Shown piece by piece: positions 36,527-60,625 of a DNA stretch of 64,000 bases. The stretch's first letter is position 1, and every line of letters starts with the position of its first letter. The stretch comes from Acidiferrobacter thiooxydans (GTDB lineage Bacteria; Pseudomonadota; Gammaproteobacteria; Acidiferrobacterales; Acidiferrobacteraceae), in the NCBI RefSeq assembly GCF_003333315.1, contig NZ_PSYR01000001.1:124001-188000 (forward strand). Direction: 5' to 3'. Under the pieces are notes generated by a model that ran no database searches, was not told where the DNA came from, and worked only from the letters and a program-made list of their open reading frames with translations. Made by a program: the position numbers and the translations under genes.

Positions 36527-36563
36527 GGCCCGGTCGATCCGGTGGCGGATCGACCGGGCCTTT
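36527..36563 (+). terminator. Strong intrinsic-type hairpin before the porin gene
   Basis: GGCCCGGTCGATCC (36527-36540) and GGATCGACCGGGCC (36547-36560) form a perfect 14-bp stem with a GGTGGC loop, followed by TTTC. It lies after the decayed flavoprotein gene and only 21 bp before the porin start, so it either ends the gntR transcript or acts within the porin leader. Confidence 0.7.
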
Positions 36564-36583
36564 CACTGAAACGAGGGAGGAGT

Positions 36584-37846
36584 ATGAAGCACATTTCTCG
36601 GGCGGCCCTTGCGGCTGCCGTGTTGGTCTGCGTCGGTGCCGGCGATGCCCATGCCGGCCAGGGATTTTTCGGGGGCATGAAGGTCAACGGTGACATCCGC
36701 GCCTACGACTTCACGCGTCACTATAGCGGACCGGTGGCCGGCCAGCAGGCCTTCTCCGTGGGCGGCGCGCTCAATGTCTTGAGCGGGTCGGTCTATGGCT
36801 TCTCGGCGGGACTGAGCTTCTATACCGCGCACAATCTCGGTCTGAATAACCCCAACCCGGCCCTTGTGGATGGCACGCTCGCGGGTTACGACGGGATCAA
36901 TACCTTAGGCCAGGCCTTTGTCCAATATGACAATCGTCGGGTCCTAGTACGCGCCGGCGACCAATCCATCGCCAATCCCTGGATCAACGCCTCCGACTCG
37001 CGCATGATCCCGGCTACCTACCAGGCGTTGCTGGCGGCCGTGACGCCGATGACGGGGCTTACGATCTCGGCCATGCGCATCACGCGCTTCAAGAGCCGGA
37101 CGTCCGACGAGTTTTCGCGCACGGACCTCTACAACTCGACGAGCACCTTCAATATCGGCGGGACCGGCGGTCTTGCCGGCCGTCGGGAAACCGGGGCGGC
37201 CGCCGTTGGTGCCGATTACGACGCCCATGGTCTGAAGGCCGCGGTGTGGGGTTATCAATTCTATGACCTCGCCAAGATGGCCTATGCCCAAGGTTCTTAT
37301 GTGCTGCCCGGCGCGGTTGGACTGAAGCCCTTCGTGGGCGCGCAGGTGGTGCGCGAGACGGGCTCTGGACCGCAATATTTGGGCGCGGTCAATGCCACAG
37401 TGTACGGCGCGGTGGTCGGGGTCAAGCGTGCCGGAGACCAGATCACTCTCGGTTACGACGATCTGCCGGCCCATGCCGGGGCCTTCGGAAACGGTGACGT
37501 CGTCTCGCCGTATACGACCGGCTACGCCACCGACCCCTTGTATACGACCTCCATGATCCAGGGCATGATCGACCGCAAGACGACCGGTCACGCCGTCAAG
37601 GTCTCGGCCACGGCCTTCCTGTTCCAACACAAGGTGCGCCTGATCGCAAGCTTCGCGGATTACTTCAATACCCTCTATAGTGGTTACGCCTCGGCGCGCA
37701 CCAACGAGGCGGATCTGGATCTGACCTACTTCCTGGGCGGCCCCTTGAAAGGGCTCTCGATCCGCGATCGCATCGGTATTGCGCATAACCTGCCGGTCGT
37801 CCACCGTTTTGTCTACAACCGGCTGATGCTTGAGTACGACTTCTAG
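36584..37846 (+). CDS. OprD-like outer-membrane porin
   Basis: 420 residues from an ATG with GGGAGGAG upstream. The signal peptide ends at GDAHAG. The mature protein starts [16 protein letters not shown] and runs through many amphipathic strands ([59 protein letters not shown]), ending LMLEYDF with the barrel-closing phenylalanine. Length and the early strand pattern fit the OprD family of substrate-specific porins. Substrate unknown; adjacency to pstB could hint at phosphate or phosphorylated compounds, but that is speculation. Confidence 0.8.
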
Positions 37847-38830: not shown

Positions 38831-40593
<1,763 letters not shown>

Positions 40594-40634: not shown

Positions 40635-40665
40635 CGGCAAACGGACTCCTGGAGTCCGTTTGCCG
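40635..40665 (-). terminator. Perfect 15-bp hairpin downstream of adk
   Basis: CGGCAAACGGACTCC (40635-40649) and GGAGTCCGTTTGCCG (40651-40665) form an uninterrupted inverted repeat just past the adk stop, before the hemB start region. On the minus strand only a weak T-tract (GTTC) follows, but location and stability suit a transcript end for adk. Confidence 0.6.
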
Positions 40666-40672
40666 GGGATTT

Positions 40673-41737
40673 CTAGCGACGACCTTTGACGGCAGGCTTC
40701 TTCTTCGCGGCCGCCTTCTTGGGCGCGGCCTTTTTGACGACTGCCTTTTTCGCAGCCGCCTTCTTCTTCGGGGCGGCCTTCTTGACTACTGCCTTCTTCT
40801 TCGGGGCGGCCTTTTTGACGACTGCCTTTTTCGCAGCCGCCTTCTTCTTCGGGGCGGCCTTCTTGACCGCCGCCGCTTTCTTGGGCGCCGCCTTCTTGAC
40901 GACCGCTATTTTCGGGGCGGCCTTCTTAACGGCCGCTTTCTTCTTCGGGGCGGCCTTCTTGACCGGGGCCGCATTTTGCGAAACGGCCTCGTTACGCGCC
41001 GGGCTTGCCGCCTGCGGCTTCACAGATGGCCCCTTCGGCTTGGTGGGCGCCGGTGCCGTCATGGCCGGTCGCAGTGTGGCCAGGGGATGGATATGGCCCT
41101 CGATGATCGTCACCACCGTGCGGAATATCTCCTGGACATCGCCCTCACCGACGACGCGGCGCAGCTTATTCTGGCTTTTGTAATAGGTGATGAGCGGGGC
41201 GGTCTGCTGCTCGTAGATCTCGAGGCGCTTGCGGATCGTCTCTTCGTTGTCGTCGGATCGCTGCTGTAGCTCCCCGCCGCACTTGTCGCAACGCCCCGGC
41301 ACCTTGGGCGGCTGAAAATAGATGTTATACATCTGGCCGCATTTGGCACAGGTGCGCCGTCCCGTCAGGCGCTTTAAAAGGACCTCGGTATTGACGTCGA
41401 CGAGGAGCGCGAGCTGCAGGGGCTGGCCCAGGCGGGCGAGCAGTGAGTCAAGGGCTTGTGCTTGCGGGTTGTTGCGCGGAAAACCGTCGAGGATAAAGCC
41501 GTTTTTTGCGTCGGGTTGACTCAACCTGTCCTGGATCATGCCAAGGACGATCTCATCGCTTACGAGCTGACCCTGATCCATGGCCGCCTTGGCCCGTTTG
41601 CCAAGCTCGGTCCCCGCCGTGACGGCCGCTCGGAGGAGGTCACCCGTGGAGATTTGGGGGATTTTGTACTTTTCGACCAGCAGTTTCGATTGCGTCCCTT
41701 TTCCGGAGCCCGGCGCTCCCAATAGCACGATTCGCAT
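40673..41737 (-). CDS. adk: Adenylate kinase with C-terminal histone-H1-like basic tail
   Basis: 354 residues, about 140 longer than a normal adenylate kinase. Residues 1-220 are a complete enzyme: P-loop GAPGSGKGTQ, STGDLLRAAV, the NMP-binding DGFPRN, and a zinc-type LID with Cys130, Cys133, Cys150 and Cys153. After a Pro/Ala linker (about 225-257) the tail consists of KKAAPKKKAAVKKAAPK-type repeats to KGRR at the end, like the bacterial H1-like proteins. There is no frameshift or stop between the two parts, so this is one fused product. The tail may bind nucleic acid or polyphosphate, which would place AMP/ADP/ATP exchange at the nucleoid. The fusion's role is inference. Confidence 0.95.
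   Translation of the reverse strand: MRIVLLGAPGSGKGTQSKLLVEKYKIPQISTGDLLRAAVTAGTELGKRAKAAMDQGQLVSDEIVLGMIQDRLSQPDAKNGFILDGFPRNNPQAQALDSLLARLGQPLQLALLVDVNTEVLLKRLTGRRTCAKCGQMYNIYFQPPKVPGRCDKCGGELQQRSDDNEETIRKRLEIYEQQTAPLITYYKSQNKLRRVVGEGDVQEIFRTVVTIIEGHIHPLATLRPAMTAPAPTKPKGPSVKPQAASPARNEAVSQNAAPVKKAAPKKKAAVKKAAPKIAVVKKAAPKKAAAVKKAAPKKKAAAKKAVVKKAAPKKKAVVKKAAPKKKAAAKKAVVKKAAPKKAAAKKKPAVKGRR
40679..40975. repeat. Low-complexity repeat encoding the adk basic tail
   Basis: Degenerate tandem repeats built on a 20-base unit close to TTCTTCGGGGCGGCCTTCTT, with GACTGCC spacers, translate on the minus strand as KKAAPKKKA-type repeats. Several units are identical at DNA level, indicating recent slippage or recombination, so tail length may vary between strains. 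Confidence 0.8.
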
Positions 41738-41972
41738 GGTTGTCTCGCTTTGGTTTTAAATTGACCTAGTAGAGGTTTTTTATATGTTTTCCCTGAGCAG
41801 GGCCGTCCCATATCGTAAGCTACCCGCTGCATCCCTTGACGTCAATGATTTTAGGGGATGAAGGCGGGGGATAAAAAAATCTGCGACACATCCTGTATTA
41901 CGGACGCTTTTGCGCTACGCTTACGGCATTTTGCGGGGCCCCGCAGGGTCTCGCCTCCGGAGGGGGTTCTCG

Positions 41973-42329
41973 ATGTCGGGAATACCGGATTTTAACGATA
42001 CCGAACTCTGGGTGGCGCGCTCGGCGCTGACGGAGCGCTACGGTAAGGCGGTGGCCTTGGAGCTCGCCGACAGTGAGCTGCGGCTCGACCCCGAGTCGAC
42101 CGCCCTGACCGTTTGTCCCACGATCTTCTGGTCCGAGCGGTCCGCCCATTTCGTCGTTTTCAAGGTCGGCGAGGGGCGTTACCGATGTCAGTTCTTTTAT
42201 GGCCCCAACGAGCATTACGGGACCGGCCGGGACGTCTATGACGACATCGGGGAGTGCGTAACCCACGTGTTACAGCTGCAGGCCGATCACGAAAGCCGCC
42301 GCGACTCACCGCCCGGCGCCAACACCTGA
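41973..42329 (+). CDS. Conserved-looking hypothetical protein, first gene of the PPi cluster
   Basis: 118 residues from the ATG at 41973 with GGAGGGGG upstream. Begins SGIPDFNDTELWVARSALTE and ends in VTHVLQLQADHESRRDSPPG. The middle (FWSERSAHFVVFKVGEGRYR, QFFYGPNEHYGTGRDVYDDI) looks like a small alpha/beta protein without membrane segments. I do not recognise the family. It lies 56 bp upstream of pfp, same strand, probably cotranscribed. The 235-bp divergent spacer to adk is AT-rich near 41755-41785 and likely holds both promoters. Confidence 0.75.
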   Translation: MSGIPDFNDTELWVARSALTERYGKAVALELADSELRLDPESTALTVCPTIFWSERSAHFVVFKVGEGRYRCQFFYGPNEHYGTGRDVYDDIGECVTHVLQLQADHESRRDSPPGANT

Positions 42330-42385
42330 TTACCGAACCCGATGTCTTTTTCCTTTCATCCAGTCCTAGGAGCACAAAGAGAGTC

Positions 42386-43651
42386 ATGGCAAAGCCCAAG
42401 AACGCGTTTTACGCCCAGTCAGGTGGCGTGACCGCCGTCATCAACGCCTCCGCCTGCGGGGTTATAGAGACGGCGCGCCGGTATAAAGCGAAGATCGGCA
42501 AGGTCTACGCCGGTCGCAACGGGATCATTGGGGCCCTGACCGAGGACTTGATCGACACCAGCAAGGAGTCGGCCGAGGCCATACGCGCTTTGCGTCACAC
42601 CCCGGCCGGGGCCTTCGGCTCATGCCGCTATAAGCTGAAGGGTCTGGAGGAAAACAGGGCCCAGTACGAGCGGCTCATCGAGGTGTTCCGGGCCCATGAT
42701 ATCGGCTACTTCTTTTATAACGGCGGCGGCGATTCCCAGGACACCGCCCATAAGGTCTCCCAGATCGGGGAGCGCCTGGGCTACCCGATCGTATGCGTCG
42801 GGGTGCCGAAGACCGTGGACAATGATTTGCCGTTCACGGATTGCTCCCCGGGGTTCGGGTCGGTGGCCAAGTATGTGGCTGTGTCCATCCGCGAGGCCGC
42901 ATTCGATGTCGCGAGCATGGCCAAGACGTCGACCAAGATCTTCGTGATGGAGGTCATGGGGCGGCACGCCGGGTGGATCGCGGCGGCCGGCGGACTGGCC
43001 GCCGAGAAGAAAGGAGACGCCCCGCACATCATCCTGTTTCCCGAGCGGGTATTCGACGAGGCGGCGTTTCTGGCGCGCGTCGACCTGGTCGTGAAGACCC
43101 ATGGCTATTGCGCCATCGTGGTCTCCGAGGGGGTGAAGGGCAAGAACGGCAAATTCCTGGCCGAGAGCGGTCTTAGGGACGCCTTTGGCCATGCGCAGCT
43201 GGGGGGTGTGGCCCCGGTGATCGCGCAGCTCATCAAGAACAAGCTCGGGTACAAGTACCACTGGGCGGTCGCCGACTATCTGCAGCGCGCCGCGCGCCAC
43301 ATCGCCTCCCGGACCGATGTCGAGCAGGCCTATGCCCTGGGCCGGCGCGCCGTGGAGCTCGCCGTAAAAGGACACAACGCGGTCATGCCCATCATCGTTC
43401 GCACGGCCAATCGTCCGTACAAGTGGGAGCTCGGGGTCGCCAACCTGGCGGATGTCGCCAATGTCGAGAAGAAGATGCCGGAGGACTATATCACCGAGGA
43501 CGGTTTTGGCATCACCCGCAAGTGCCGCACCTATCTCGAGCCCCTCATCCAGGGAGAGGATTATCCGCCGTATAAAAACGGCCTGCCGCACTATGTGCGA
43601 CTGAAGAATGCGCCCGTCAAGAAAAAGCTGGGCGGGGAATTCAAGGTCTAG
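42386..43651 (+). CDS. pfp: Pyrophosphate-dependent 6-phosphofructokinase
   Basis: 421 residues from an ATG with AGGAG 15 nt and GAGAG nearer upstream. NAFYAQSGGVTAVINASACG is the N-terminal phosphate loop. FYNGGGDSQDTAHKV carries Asp where ATP-using enzymes have Gly, and VGVPKTVDNDL has Lys in place of the Gly of PGTIDND; both are the accepted markers of PPi specificity. EVMGRHAGWIAAAGGLA and the fructose-6-phosphate site follow. Reversible, so it can serve glycolysis or gluconeogenesis. Its partner two genes on is a proton-pumping pyrophosphatase, which draws on the same PPi pool. Confidence 0.96.
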   Translation: MAKPKNAFYAQSGGVTAVINASACGVIETARRYKAKIGKVYAGRNGIIGALTEDLIDTSKESAEAIRALRHTPAGAFGSCRYKLKGLEENRAQYERLIEVFRAHDIGYFFYNGGGDSQDTAHKVSQIGERLGYPIVCVGVPKTVDNDLPFTDCSPGFGSVAKYVAVSIREAAFDVASMAKTSTKIFVMEVMGRHAGWIAAAGGLAAEKKGDAPHIILFPERVFDEAAFLARVDLVVKTHGYCAIVVSEGVKGKNGKFLAESGLRDAFGHAQLGGVAPVIAQLIKNKLGYKYHWAVADYLQRAARHIASRTDVEQAYALGRRAVELAVKGHNAVMPIIVRTANRPYKWELGVANLADVANVEKKMPEDYITEDGFGITRKCRTYLEPLIQGEDYPPYKNGLPHYVRLKNAPVKKKLGGEFKV

Positions 43652-43933: not shown

Positions 43934-45982
43934 ATGTCTATCGATCTTGCGGTCGTGTTCGTTTGTGCCCTGTTGGCGTTATTTTACGGGGGGGTTTCCA
44001 TTCTGTGGGTCATGAAGCAGCCGACTGGTACGGCGCGTATGGTGGAGATCGCGCACGCCATCCAGGAGGGGGCTCAGGCCTATCTGAATCGCCAGTACCG
44101 CACGATTGGACTGGTCGGCGTCATTCTCTTCATTCTGCTCTTCGTTTTCCTGCAGCATCTTACGGCCATAGGGTTTGCGATCGGCGCCATCCTGTCCGGA
44201 CTTGCCGGTTATATCGGTATGAACGTCTCGGTCCGGTCGAACGTGCGTACGGCGGCCGCCGCCTCGGGCGGGATCAATGCCGCGTTGCGCGTGGCCTTTC
44301 GTGGCGGGGCGATCACTGGGCTTTTGGTGGTCGGCCTCGGCCTTTTGGGGGTGGCCGGCTACTTCGCCGTGTTGCGCGCGCTCGCACCCGCCTCCGGCCA
44401 TATAGACGTCTCGCCGCTCGTGGGGCTTGCCTTCGGAGGGTCTCTGATCTCGATCTTCGCGCGCTTAGGGGGCGGAATCTTCACCAAGGGGGCCGATGTC
44501 GGCGCCGATCTTGTCGGCAAGGTCGAGGCCGGCATACCCGAGGATGACCCGCGTAATCCCGCGGTCATCGCCGACAACGTCGGGGATAACGTCGGGGATT
44601 GCGCGGGCATGGCCGCGGATCTCTTCGAGACCTATGCCGTCACCGTCGTCGCTACCTTGCTGCTCGGCCATCTGGATTTCCCGGGCTTTCATGGGGCCTT
44701 GATCTATCCGCTGGCCCTGGGCGCCGCCTCCATAGTCGCCTCGATCATCGGCACGTGGTTTGTAAGGGCGCGCGAGGGCGGCAAGATCATGAACGCCCTC
44801 TATCGCGGCCTCATCGTCACCGGCGTCATTGCCGCCGCGCTTTTTTACCCCGTCACGCGCTGGCTCATGCACGGCATCACCGCCCATACGGCGGCCGGCG
44901 CGCCGCTCACGGTCAGTGACATTTACTATTCGGCGTTGACCGGGCTTCTGGTCACGGGCCTGCTGGTCGTCATCACCGAGTACTATACGGCGACCGAATA
45001 CAAACCGGTGCGCTATATCGCTCAGGCCTCCACGACCGGTCATGGCACGAACGTCATCGCCGGGCTTGCGGTCTCCATGAAGGCGACCGCCGCCCCGGTG
45101 CTCGTGATCTGTGCGGGCATAGGTCTTGCCTACCATCTCGCCGGGCTCTACGGCATAGCGGTTGCGGCCAGCGCCATGTTGTCACTGGCCGGCATGATTA
45201 TCGCGCTCGATGCCTATGGTCCGATCACCGACAATGCCGGCGGCATCGCCGAGATGGCCAATCTCCCGCCCGCCGTGCGCGCCGTGACCGACCCGCTCGA
45301 TGCGGTCGGCAACACCACCAAGGCGGTCACCAAGGGTTACGCCATCGGATCCGCGGGGCTCGCGGCGCTCGTGCTATTTTCGGACTTCACGCATGAGCTG
45401 ACGGCGCGCACGGGTCGAGTACTCGCCTTCGATCTCTCCAACCACATGGTGATTATCGGCCTGTTCCTTGGCGGGCTCATCCCCTACCTCTTTGGCGCCA
45501 TGGCCATGGAGGCGGTGGGCCGGGCGGCGGGCTCGGTCGTCATCGAGGTGCGCCGCCAGTTCAAGGAGATCCCGGGCATCATGGAGGGCACGGCGCGGCC
45601 CGACTACTCGCGCGCGGTCGATATGCTCACCAAGGCCGCGATCCGCGAGATGATCATCCCCTCGTTGCTGCCGGTCCTGGTGCCGGTCGTAGTCGGGGTA
45701 GTGCTCGGCGCCCAGGCCCTGGGCGGGGTCTTGATGGGCACCATCGTCACGGGGCTTTTCGTGGCGATCTCCATGACCACCGGCGGTGGCGCCTGGGACA
45801 ATGCCAAGAAGTACATCGAAGACAACCACTTCGGAGGCAAGGGTTCGGAGGCCCACAAGGCGGCGGTCACCGGTGACACGGTCGGCGACCCGTACAAGGA
45901 CACGGCGGGACCGGCGGTCAACCCGATGATCAAGATCATCAATATCGTCGCGCTCTTGCTGGTACCCCTGCTCCATCTGTGA
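43934..45982 (+). CDS. hppA: Membrane-bound proton-pumping pyrophosphatase, K+-independent type
   Basis: 682 residues, about 15-16 transmembrane helices. PPi-binding signature [20 protein letters not shown], then [19 protein letters not shown] and the late [20 protein letters not shown]. At the residue that decides potassium dependence the sequence reads [16 protein letters not shown], with Lys instead of Ala, which indicates the K+-independent H+-PPase class. Couples PPi hydrolysis to proton export, or makes PPi from the proton gradient. With pfp it suggests that PPi serves as an energy currency. Confidence 0.97.
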
Positions 45983-60361: not shown

Positions 60362-60625
60362 ATGGCAATAAAGAAGAAGGCGGCGGCGCCCAAGAAGGCG
60401 GTGCGAAAAAGCGCGCCTGCAAAGGCGTCGGTCAAGAAGGCCGCCGTCAAAAAGTCGGTGACAAAGAAGGCGTCCGTCAAGAAGGCGTCGGTCAAGAAGG
60501 CCGCACCGAAGAAGGCGTCAACCCGGATGGCGACGTCGACGTCGCGCACCAAGATGGCAGCCAAGAAGTCGGTGACAACCAAGACCACGTCCACCAAGAA
60601 GAAGGCGCGTTCCAAGAAGAAGTAG
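60362..60625 (+). CDS. Histone-H1-like Lys/Ala-rich DNA-binding protein
   Basis: 87 residues, almost entirely Lys, Ala, Val, Ser, Thr and Pro: KKKAAAPKKAVRKSAPAKAS near the start, then SVKKA/SVTKKA repeats and a terminal KKKARSKKK. This is the composition of bacterial H1-like nucleoid proteins such as AlgP/HctB-type tails. Very basic, no acidic residues, presumed to compact or coat DNA. Strong ribosome-binding site, long leader and a T-rich terminator suggest an abundant monocistronic message. The same repeat type ends the adenylate kinase at 40.7 kb. Confidence 0.92.
   Translation: MAIKKKAAAPKKAVRKSAPAKASVKKAAVKKSVTKKASVKKASVKKAAPKKASTRMATSTSRTKMAAKKSVTTKTTSTKKKARSKKK

Follow-up and report, generated by a model that had tools for sequence, protein, structure and literature searches.

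A lysine/alanine-rich, histone H1-like tail on the adenylate kinase of Acidiferrobacter thiooxydans and related bacteria

Introduction

Adenylate kinase (Adk), which keeps ATP, ADP and AMP in balance, is a textbook example of a soluble enzyme. In Acidiferrobacter thiooxydans its gene continues, with no break in the frame, into a long Lys/Ala-rich extension of the histone H1 type. H1-like tails on bacterial proteins are of an already known kind, here found on a housekeeping metabolic enzyme, which raises the question of whether the fusion is genuine, how far it extends among relatives and what such a tail could hold the enzyme to. The locus was analysed within a window of 64,000 nucleotides, which is the whole stretch of DNA considered here (contig NZ_PSYR01000001.1, positions 124,001 to 188,000), together with the adk loci of related genomes. 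No paper on a tailed Adk, or on the function of its tail, was found in the open-licence literature searched.

Gene structure and the two parts of the protein

The minus strand of the window has one open frame of 354 aa at 40673..41737, a region interrupted by stops when the plus strand is read, in agreement with the preliminary description, which had placed core and tail in a single frame and had named no strand. The core (residues 1-217; 41087..41737, minus strand) has the P-loop GAPGSGKGT and a zinc LID with the cysteines C130/C133/C150/C153. The protein is matched by the Pfam families ADK (E 1.7e-57) and ADK_lid (5.8e-18), as well as by the NCBIfam adenylate kinase NF001380, at 5e-92 over residues 1-213 (307.1 bits, above the curated cut-off of 251). 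Neither the P-loop (G7-T15) nor the four cysteines vary across an alignment of 14 sequences (that of the window and those of 13 relatives), and with these matches the earlier reading of a complete zinc-LID adenylate kinase is upheld. The best-scoring solved relative, 5g3y, aligned to residues 1-208. The conversion of ATP + AMP to 2 ADP is expected of the tailed enzyme, since no other adk was found in this genome.

The C-terminal extension (residues 218-354, 137 residues; 40676..41086, minus strand) begins with a Pro/Ala-rich linker, still recognisable in close relatives, and continues with K/A/P repeats at about residues 258-354. It has a net charge of +45, with a single acidic residue, and is predicted to be disordered: in the AlphaFold2 model (14-row alignment) pLDDT is about 86-93 as far as residue 210, and almost all of residues 218-348 score under 50. 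Directly 3' of the adk stop, a hairpin with a 14-bp stem (40635..40665, minus strand; -33.9 kcal/mol, z -6.15) occupies a terminator-like position at the 3' boundary of the gene. The repeats of the tail had been described as near-identical at the DNA level; this holds for a single repeat, exact over at least 60 bp and spaced at 81 bp, and does not extend to the arrays taken whole, which are 59-84% matching.

H1-like character of the tail

The tail scored 30.8 bits (E 3.3e-7) against the NCBIfam H1-like model NF038053 and four shuffled versions of it gave no family match at E<=1; therefore, the order of the residues as well as their composition is H1-like. The scores are under the curated cut-offs of NF038053 (30.8 of 80), of HC2 NF038052 (14.8 of 135) and of Pfam HC2 PF07382 (21.7 of 40), so the tail is H1-like in type and not a member of these families, and the earlier assignment to the H1-like type stands in this sense.

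A degenerate DNA pattern for KKxAxKK has 14 sites in the 3.25-Mb genome of A. thiooxydans, with 10 in the adk tail, two in a separate H1-like gene and two single sites elsewhere, and the reversed control pattern has none. Because no gene other than adk and the H1-like one has several sites, the tail is gene-specific in this genome, and a genome-wide habit of Lys/Ala tails is ruled out there by the same distribution. The separate gene (60362..60625, plus strand) encodes a small Lys/Ala-rich protein of 87 aa with a net charge of +33; it is located 18.6 kb from adk, and the independent H1-like gene previously noticed about 19 kb away is real. A distance of about 19 kb from adk to the H1-like gene was also observed in G001, G007, G008, G011 and G014. 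In some relatives within the order, KKxAxKK sites are more numerous (61 in G020, 36 in G025 and 35 in G027 vs 14 in A. thiooxydans), and these three genomes may encode more proteins with such Lys/Ala tails.

Distribution and evolution of the tail

Aligning adk from relatives, which had been proposed as a check, showed the tail to be widespread, with a length that varies between species. An Adk match was found in 13 of the 14 genomes of the genus and in 17 of the 18 of the family, the sole miss in both being G013, which has no core match and is 77% complete. At the level of the order, 53 of 57 genomes had a match at E<=1e-30 (the four misses are 75-89% complete), and in all 53 the best match runs past query residue 268 into the tail, with an open frame of at least 304 codons. 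Since all of these matches enter the tail, and since the tail is also open in single-contig genomes (G001, G049, G075, G090, G136, G177 and G187), an assembly or frameshift artefact is ruled out. A second Adk match (E<=1e-30), 48-55% identical to the query, came up in 19 of those 57 genomes; seven of these second copies were read, as part of 20 second or distant Adk copies, and none of the seven has a tail.

Of the 369 genomes searched in the class, 339 were matched, and among the matches listed many of the best ones are tailed. The class is taken as Gammaproteobacteria, given that MAGs named as Thiotrichaceae and Chromatiales are placed among these Adks. The 127 distinct Adks that were read include 82 with at least 40 residues beyond the core, a ratio that is no prevalence figure because the sequences are best matches plus chosen places, one per distinct sequence. 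The 82 tailed Adks are spread over 35 family labels within the class and Bradyrhizobium, and also include those of a Thiotrichaceae MAG and a Chromatiales MAG, which are perhaps inside the 35 labels. Among the untailed Adks, L032 stops at residue 217 and its three frames hold no Lys/Ala tail; the search match of this sequence had seemed to extend to residue 317. Judged from these sequences, the tail is ancient within a large clade of Adks and is no peculiarity of A. thiooxydans.

Tail length ranges from 96 to 174 residues over 12 genomes of the genus, with differences between species (L008, with masked bases, was left out), and from 78 to 313 residues (median 153) over the 82 tailed Adks, some of whose tails end at a contig end or contain masked bases. 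The last 70 residues of the 82 tails have median fractions of 0.41 for K, 0.24 for A, 0.03 for R and 0.00 for D/E, and a median net charge per residue of 0.46, with five tails below 0.3 (L008, with its masked bases, L071, L072, L073 and L095). In L071, L073 and L095 the Lys/Ala stretch is followed by a charged segment, rich in E, R, L and Q and helical-looking by eye, which makes them three-part proteins, and the tail of L072 ends in repeats EEKGQEESSQEKGG, as if the array were read in a shifted frame. The cores of seven close pairs are 94-99% identical and their tails 60-81%; an eighth pair, L010/L014 (tail identity 47%), was left out, the L014 tail being masked. It seems that the tail retains its charge and length as its sequence drifts, apparently by repeat turnover. 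The tail needs seven changes on a quick maximum-likelihood tree of the 127 Adks, which gave long-branch warnings, the Bradyrhizobium pair among them, and three changes on a 61-row tree, suggesting that it is mostly one old inherited trait with some losses.

A chance low-complexity ORF is ruled out by the KKxAxKK count, the shuffle control and the composition kept over the 82 tails. A related explanation, in which slippage in GC-rich Lys/Ala codons produced a useless tail that is tolerated, would account for the exact repeat, for the drift of the tail sequences and for the losses on the tree; nevertheless, it is very improbable, as most of the 82 tails under the 35 family labels retain the open frame, the positive charge and a near-zero content of acidic residues, and the distant Bradyrhizobium Adk also has a lysine tail.

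Polyphosphate kinases in tailed genomes

Polyphosphate (polyP), named in the preliminary description as a possible target next to DNA and RNA, would place Adk on polyP granules, where polyP kinase and Adk make ATP from polyP and AMP. A precedent for this is AlgP of Pseudomonas, which has a similar H1-like tail and sits on polyP granules, according to PMC9239181. A PPK1 match in the genome of A. thiooxydans, and the presence of phoU and (by eye) pstB in the window, also favour a polyP tether. PPK1 and PPK2 were searched with one Pfam model each, which had matches in 7 and 8 of 14 control genomes, respectively; the 61 genomes covered by this search, and by those for pfp and hppA below, were 40 with long tailed loci, 20 chosen untailed ones and that of A. 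thiooxydans itself.

PPK1 was matched in 29/41 tailed and 15/20 untailed genomes (Fisher p 1), while PPK2, for which A. thiooxydans has no match, is rarer with the tail (22/41) than without it (17/20; Fisher p 0.02, not corrected for ancestry). Neither kinase was matched in 10 of the 41 tailed genomes (G025, G027, G031, G127, G179, G187, G252, G281, G342 and G391) and in 2 of the 20 untailed ones. Eight of those 10 tailed genomes are at least 97% complete, the others being G281 (92%) and G031 (63%), and G187 is a single contig. Unless polyP is made in another way in these 10, it is therefore not the general target, and the suggestion of polyP as the anchor of the tail finds no support as a general rule. 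A polyP tether is accordingly quite unlikely to explain the tail, and polyP may be one partner where it is present.

Gene neighbourhood and pyrophosphate metabolism

Between adk and pfp there is a small conserved ORF (41910..42329, plus strand), divergent from adk and also present beside adk in other tailed loci, where its counterparts have 30-94% identity; it had no Pfam or NCBIfam match. The gene pfp (42254..43651, plus strand; NF010675, 1.5e-199) encodes a pyrophosphate-dependent phosphofructokinase, with its true start, judged by eye, probably at 42386, and hppA (43934..45982, plus strand; NF001951, 1151 bits; TIGR01104, 884 bits) encodes an ion-translocating membrane pyrophosphatase. Pyrophosphate-dependent phosphofructokinase and membrane pyrophosphatase act, in such bacteria, in glycolysis or in the Calvin cycle. 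Downstream of adk and on the same strand is hemB for porphobilinogen synthase (39559..40581, minus strand), found there in many relatives as well. The phosphate-uptake genes mentioned above lie beyond hemB, adjoined by an OprD-family porin (36542-37846) that is perhaps a phosphate porin.

The usual arrangement in tailed loci, conserved across families, has adk divergent from pfp. In the long loci (about 10-19 kb), pfp is beside adk in 34/40 tailed and 2/20 untailed relatives, and it is beside only 1 of 20 second or distant Adk copies. At a distance of up to 2.5 kb, pfp was found for 68/82 tailed vs 4/45 untailed Adks (L032, L115, L118 and L136), both figures being lower bounds given that many loci have a 1.5 kb flank or a contig edge. 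Genome-wide, pfp (E<=1e-60) is present in 40/41 tailed vs 5/20 untailed genomes (Fisher 3e-9) and hppA in 34/41 vs 4/20 (Fisher 3e-6), with p-values that ignore relatedness. Independent pairs for tail and pfp amount to two on well-supported branches, or to seven (127-Adk tree) and three (61-row tree) when all branches are used; with two usable pairs there is no power, and common ancestry therefore explains the tail-pfp figures equally well. The tail appears linked to genes of pyrophosphate metabolism, on which the preliminary description was silent, a link that could be explained by shared ancestry. Two untailed Adks, L109 and L110 (G131 and G258), are nested in a tailed clade, and their genomes have no pfp or hppA match, a possible natural joint loss of tail, pfp and hppA.

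One explanation built on this setting is a pyrophosphate metabolon, in which the tail would dock Adk to the phosphofructokinase, to the membrane pyrophosphatase or to nearby acidic membrane, with a local AMP/PPi economy. The frequencies of pfp and hppA agree with it, as do G131 and G258, which share the family label f82 with G360, a tailed genome whose adk has pfp next to it. This reading is rather unlikely, however, given the lack of statistical power, the untailed Adks that also have pfp beside them and the absence of hppA from 7/41 tailed genomes. In addition, the net charges of the phosphofructokinase (+14) and of the hppA product (-2) make neither an obvious acidic dock, and with -3 for the small ORF and -6 for hemB no clear acidic dock, as judged by charge, is encoded next door.

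A putative nucleic-acid tether

Here it is proposed, with about even confidence, that the disordered H1-like tail tethers Adk to nucleic acid electrostatically and without specificity, the nucleoid being the most likely anchor by default. The folded core would carry out its ordinary ATP + AMP = 2 ADP chemistry, the tail would raise the share of Adk held on a polyanion, and selection would act on the charge and length of the tail with no fixed sequence. The proposal starts from what was observed of the locus, namely the intact core, the in-frame tail with its charge, predicted disorder and composition, its breadth and its neighbourhood, and from these the binding, location and benefit of the tail are putatively assigned. 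The 10 tailed genomes with neither polyP kinase leave DNA or RNA as the ever-present polyanions, and AlgP, PhaF and the lysine-repeat TopA may serve, by analogy, as precedents for a tail that tethers.

A tether to the ribosome, tRNA or other RNA would instead keep Adk near translation, where tRNA charging yields AMP. It fits a polycationic tail with K far over R, found also where no PPK was matched, but the tail has no RNA-specific sequence feature and RNA binding is here inseparable from DNA binding; as an explanation of its own it is unlikely. The same consideration bears on the nucleoid tether, as the sequence gives nothing to separate DNA from RNA or acidic membrane. Also against the tether, the untailed related Adks (20 read) presumably do the same job, and a nucleotide-exchange enzyme held on the nucleoid would meet no obvious need because metabolites diffuse fast. 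Furthermore, the H1-like cut-offs are missed, a second Adk match is found in a third of the order's genomes (19/57) and 5 of the 82 tails are weakly charged.

The recurrent pfp/hppA setting points to host lineages that draw on pyrophosphate in their sugar-phosphate metabolism, with a single gene neighbourhood that would balance the steps yielding AMP and PPi (e.g., tRNA charging). A wider form of the nucleoid tether, in which Adk held on the nucleoid (or RNA) links the recycling of AMP and PPi to the places where both arise, with PPi-based sugar metabolism encoded next door, is offered tentatively as a doubtful but possible extension.

New here are the tailed adk-pfp neighbourhood, the tailed genomes without PPK matches (10/41), the tail composition kept amid sequence drift and the apparently separate Bradyrhizobium tail. 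An old, charge-conserved and length-variable tail under 35 family labels would mean that the location of Adk matters. As the same core occurs with and without a tail, and some genomes (e.g., G019, G025 and G049) have one tailed and one untailed Adk, the system offers a test case for whether bacterial nucleotide balance is spatially organised, and for the role of H1-like tails on an enzyme whose substrate is not DNA.

Comparison with known systems

Residues 1-213 of the window protein are like the long-form zinc-LID Adks (NF001380/TIGR01351; PDB 5g3y and 1zin), with the same P-loop and Cys4 LID. The 60 solved chains listed at E<=1e-40 do not exceed 245 aa, whereas the window protein adds 137 C-terminal residues. 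The Bradyrhizobium Adk also has a lysine-rich C-terminal tail and is covered by NCBIfam NF010381 (PRK13808, 335 positions), which matches residues 1-292 of its 296 and reaches into the tail; a tailed Adk as such is therefore already in the annotation library. The window protein scores 212.4 bits against this model, under the curated cut-off of 426, which was exceeded in 2 of 150 genomes searched in the phylum, members of a single genus. The Bradyrhizobium core is separate from the clade of the window Adk, on a long branch of the tree, and its lysine tail was apparently gained apart. The chlamydial HC2 and Burkholderia H1-like proteins (PF07382, NF038052 and NF038053) match the tail weakly, below the cut-offs, and are proteins that stand alone.

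The tails of AlgP and PhaF, as described in PMC9239181, are long, disordered, C-terminal and rich in Lys, Ala and Pro, of the H1 type as in the window Adk, but they sit on helical granule proteins and the window tail on a metabolic enzyme. The same study describes the AlgP tail as binding DNA, and AlgP as appearing to spread over the nucleoid when polyP kinases are missing. It also notes that AlgP and PhaF are possibly underestimated since trypsin shreds lysine-dense tails. A proteomic refutation of the adk fusion needs care for this reason, because trypsin cuts the lysine-dense tail into tiny pieces; the mass of the full fusion is estimated at roughly 37 kDa. Variation in repeat number has been reported for algP, going by the title of a 1990 paper that PMC9239181 cites. 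The actinobacterial topoisomerase I (TopA), as presented in PMC7398561, is, like the window Adk, an enzyme with an added lysine-repeat domain, which in TopA is C-terminal and tied to processivity; the substrate of topoisomerase I is DNA itself, whereas those of Adk are free nucleotides.
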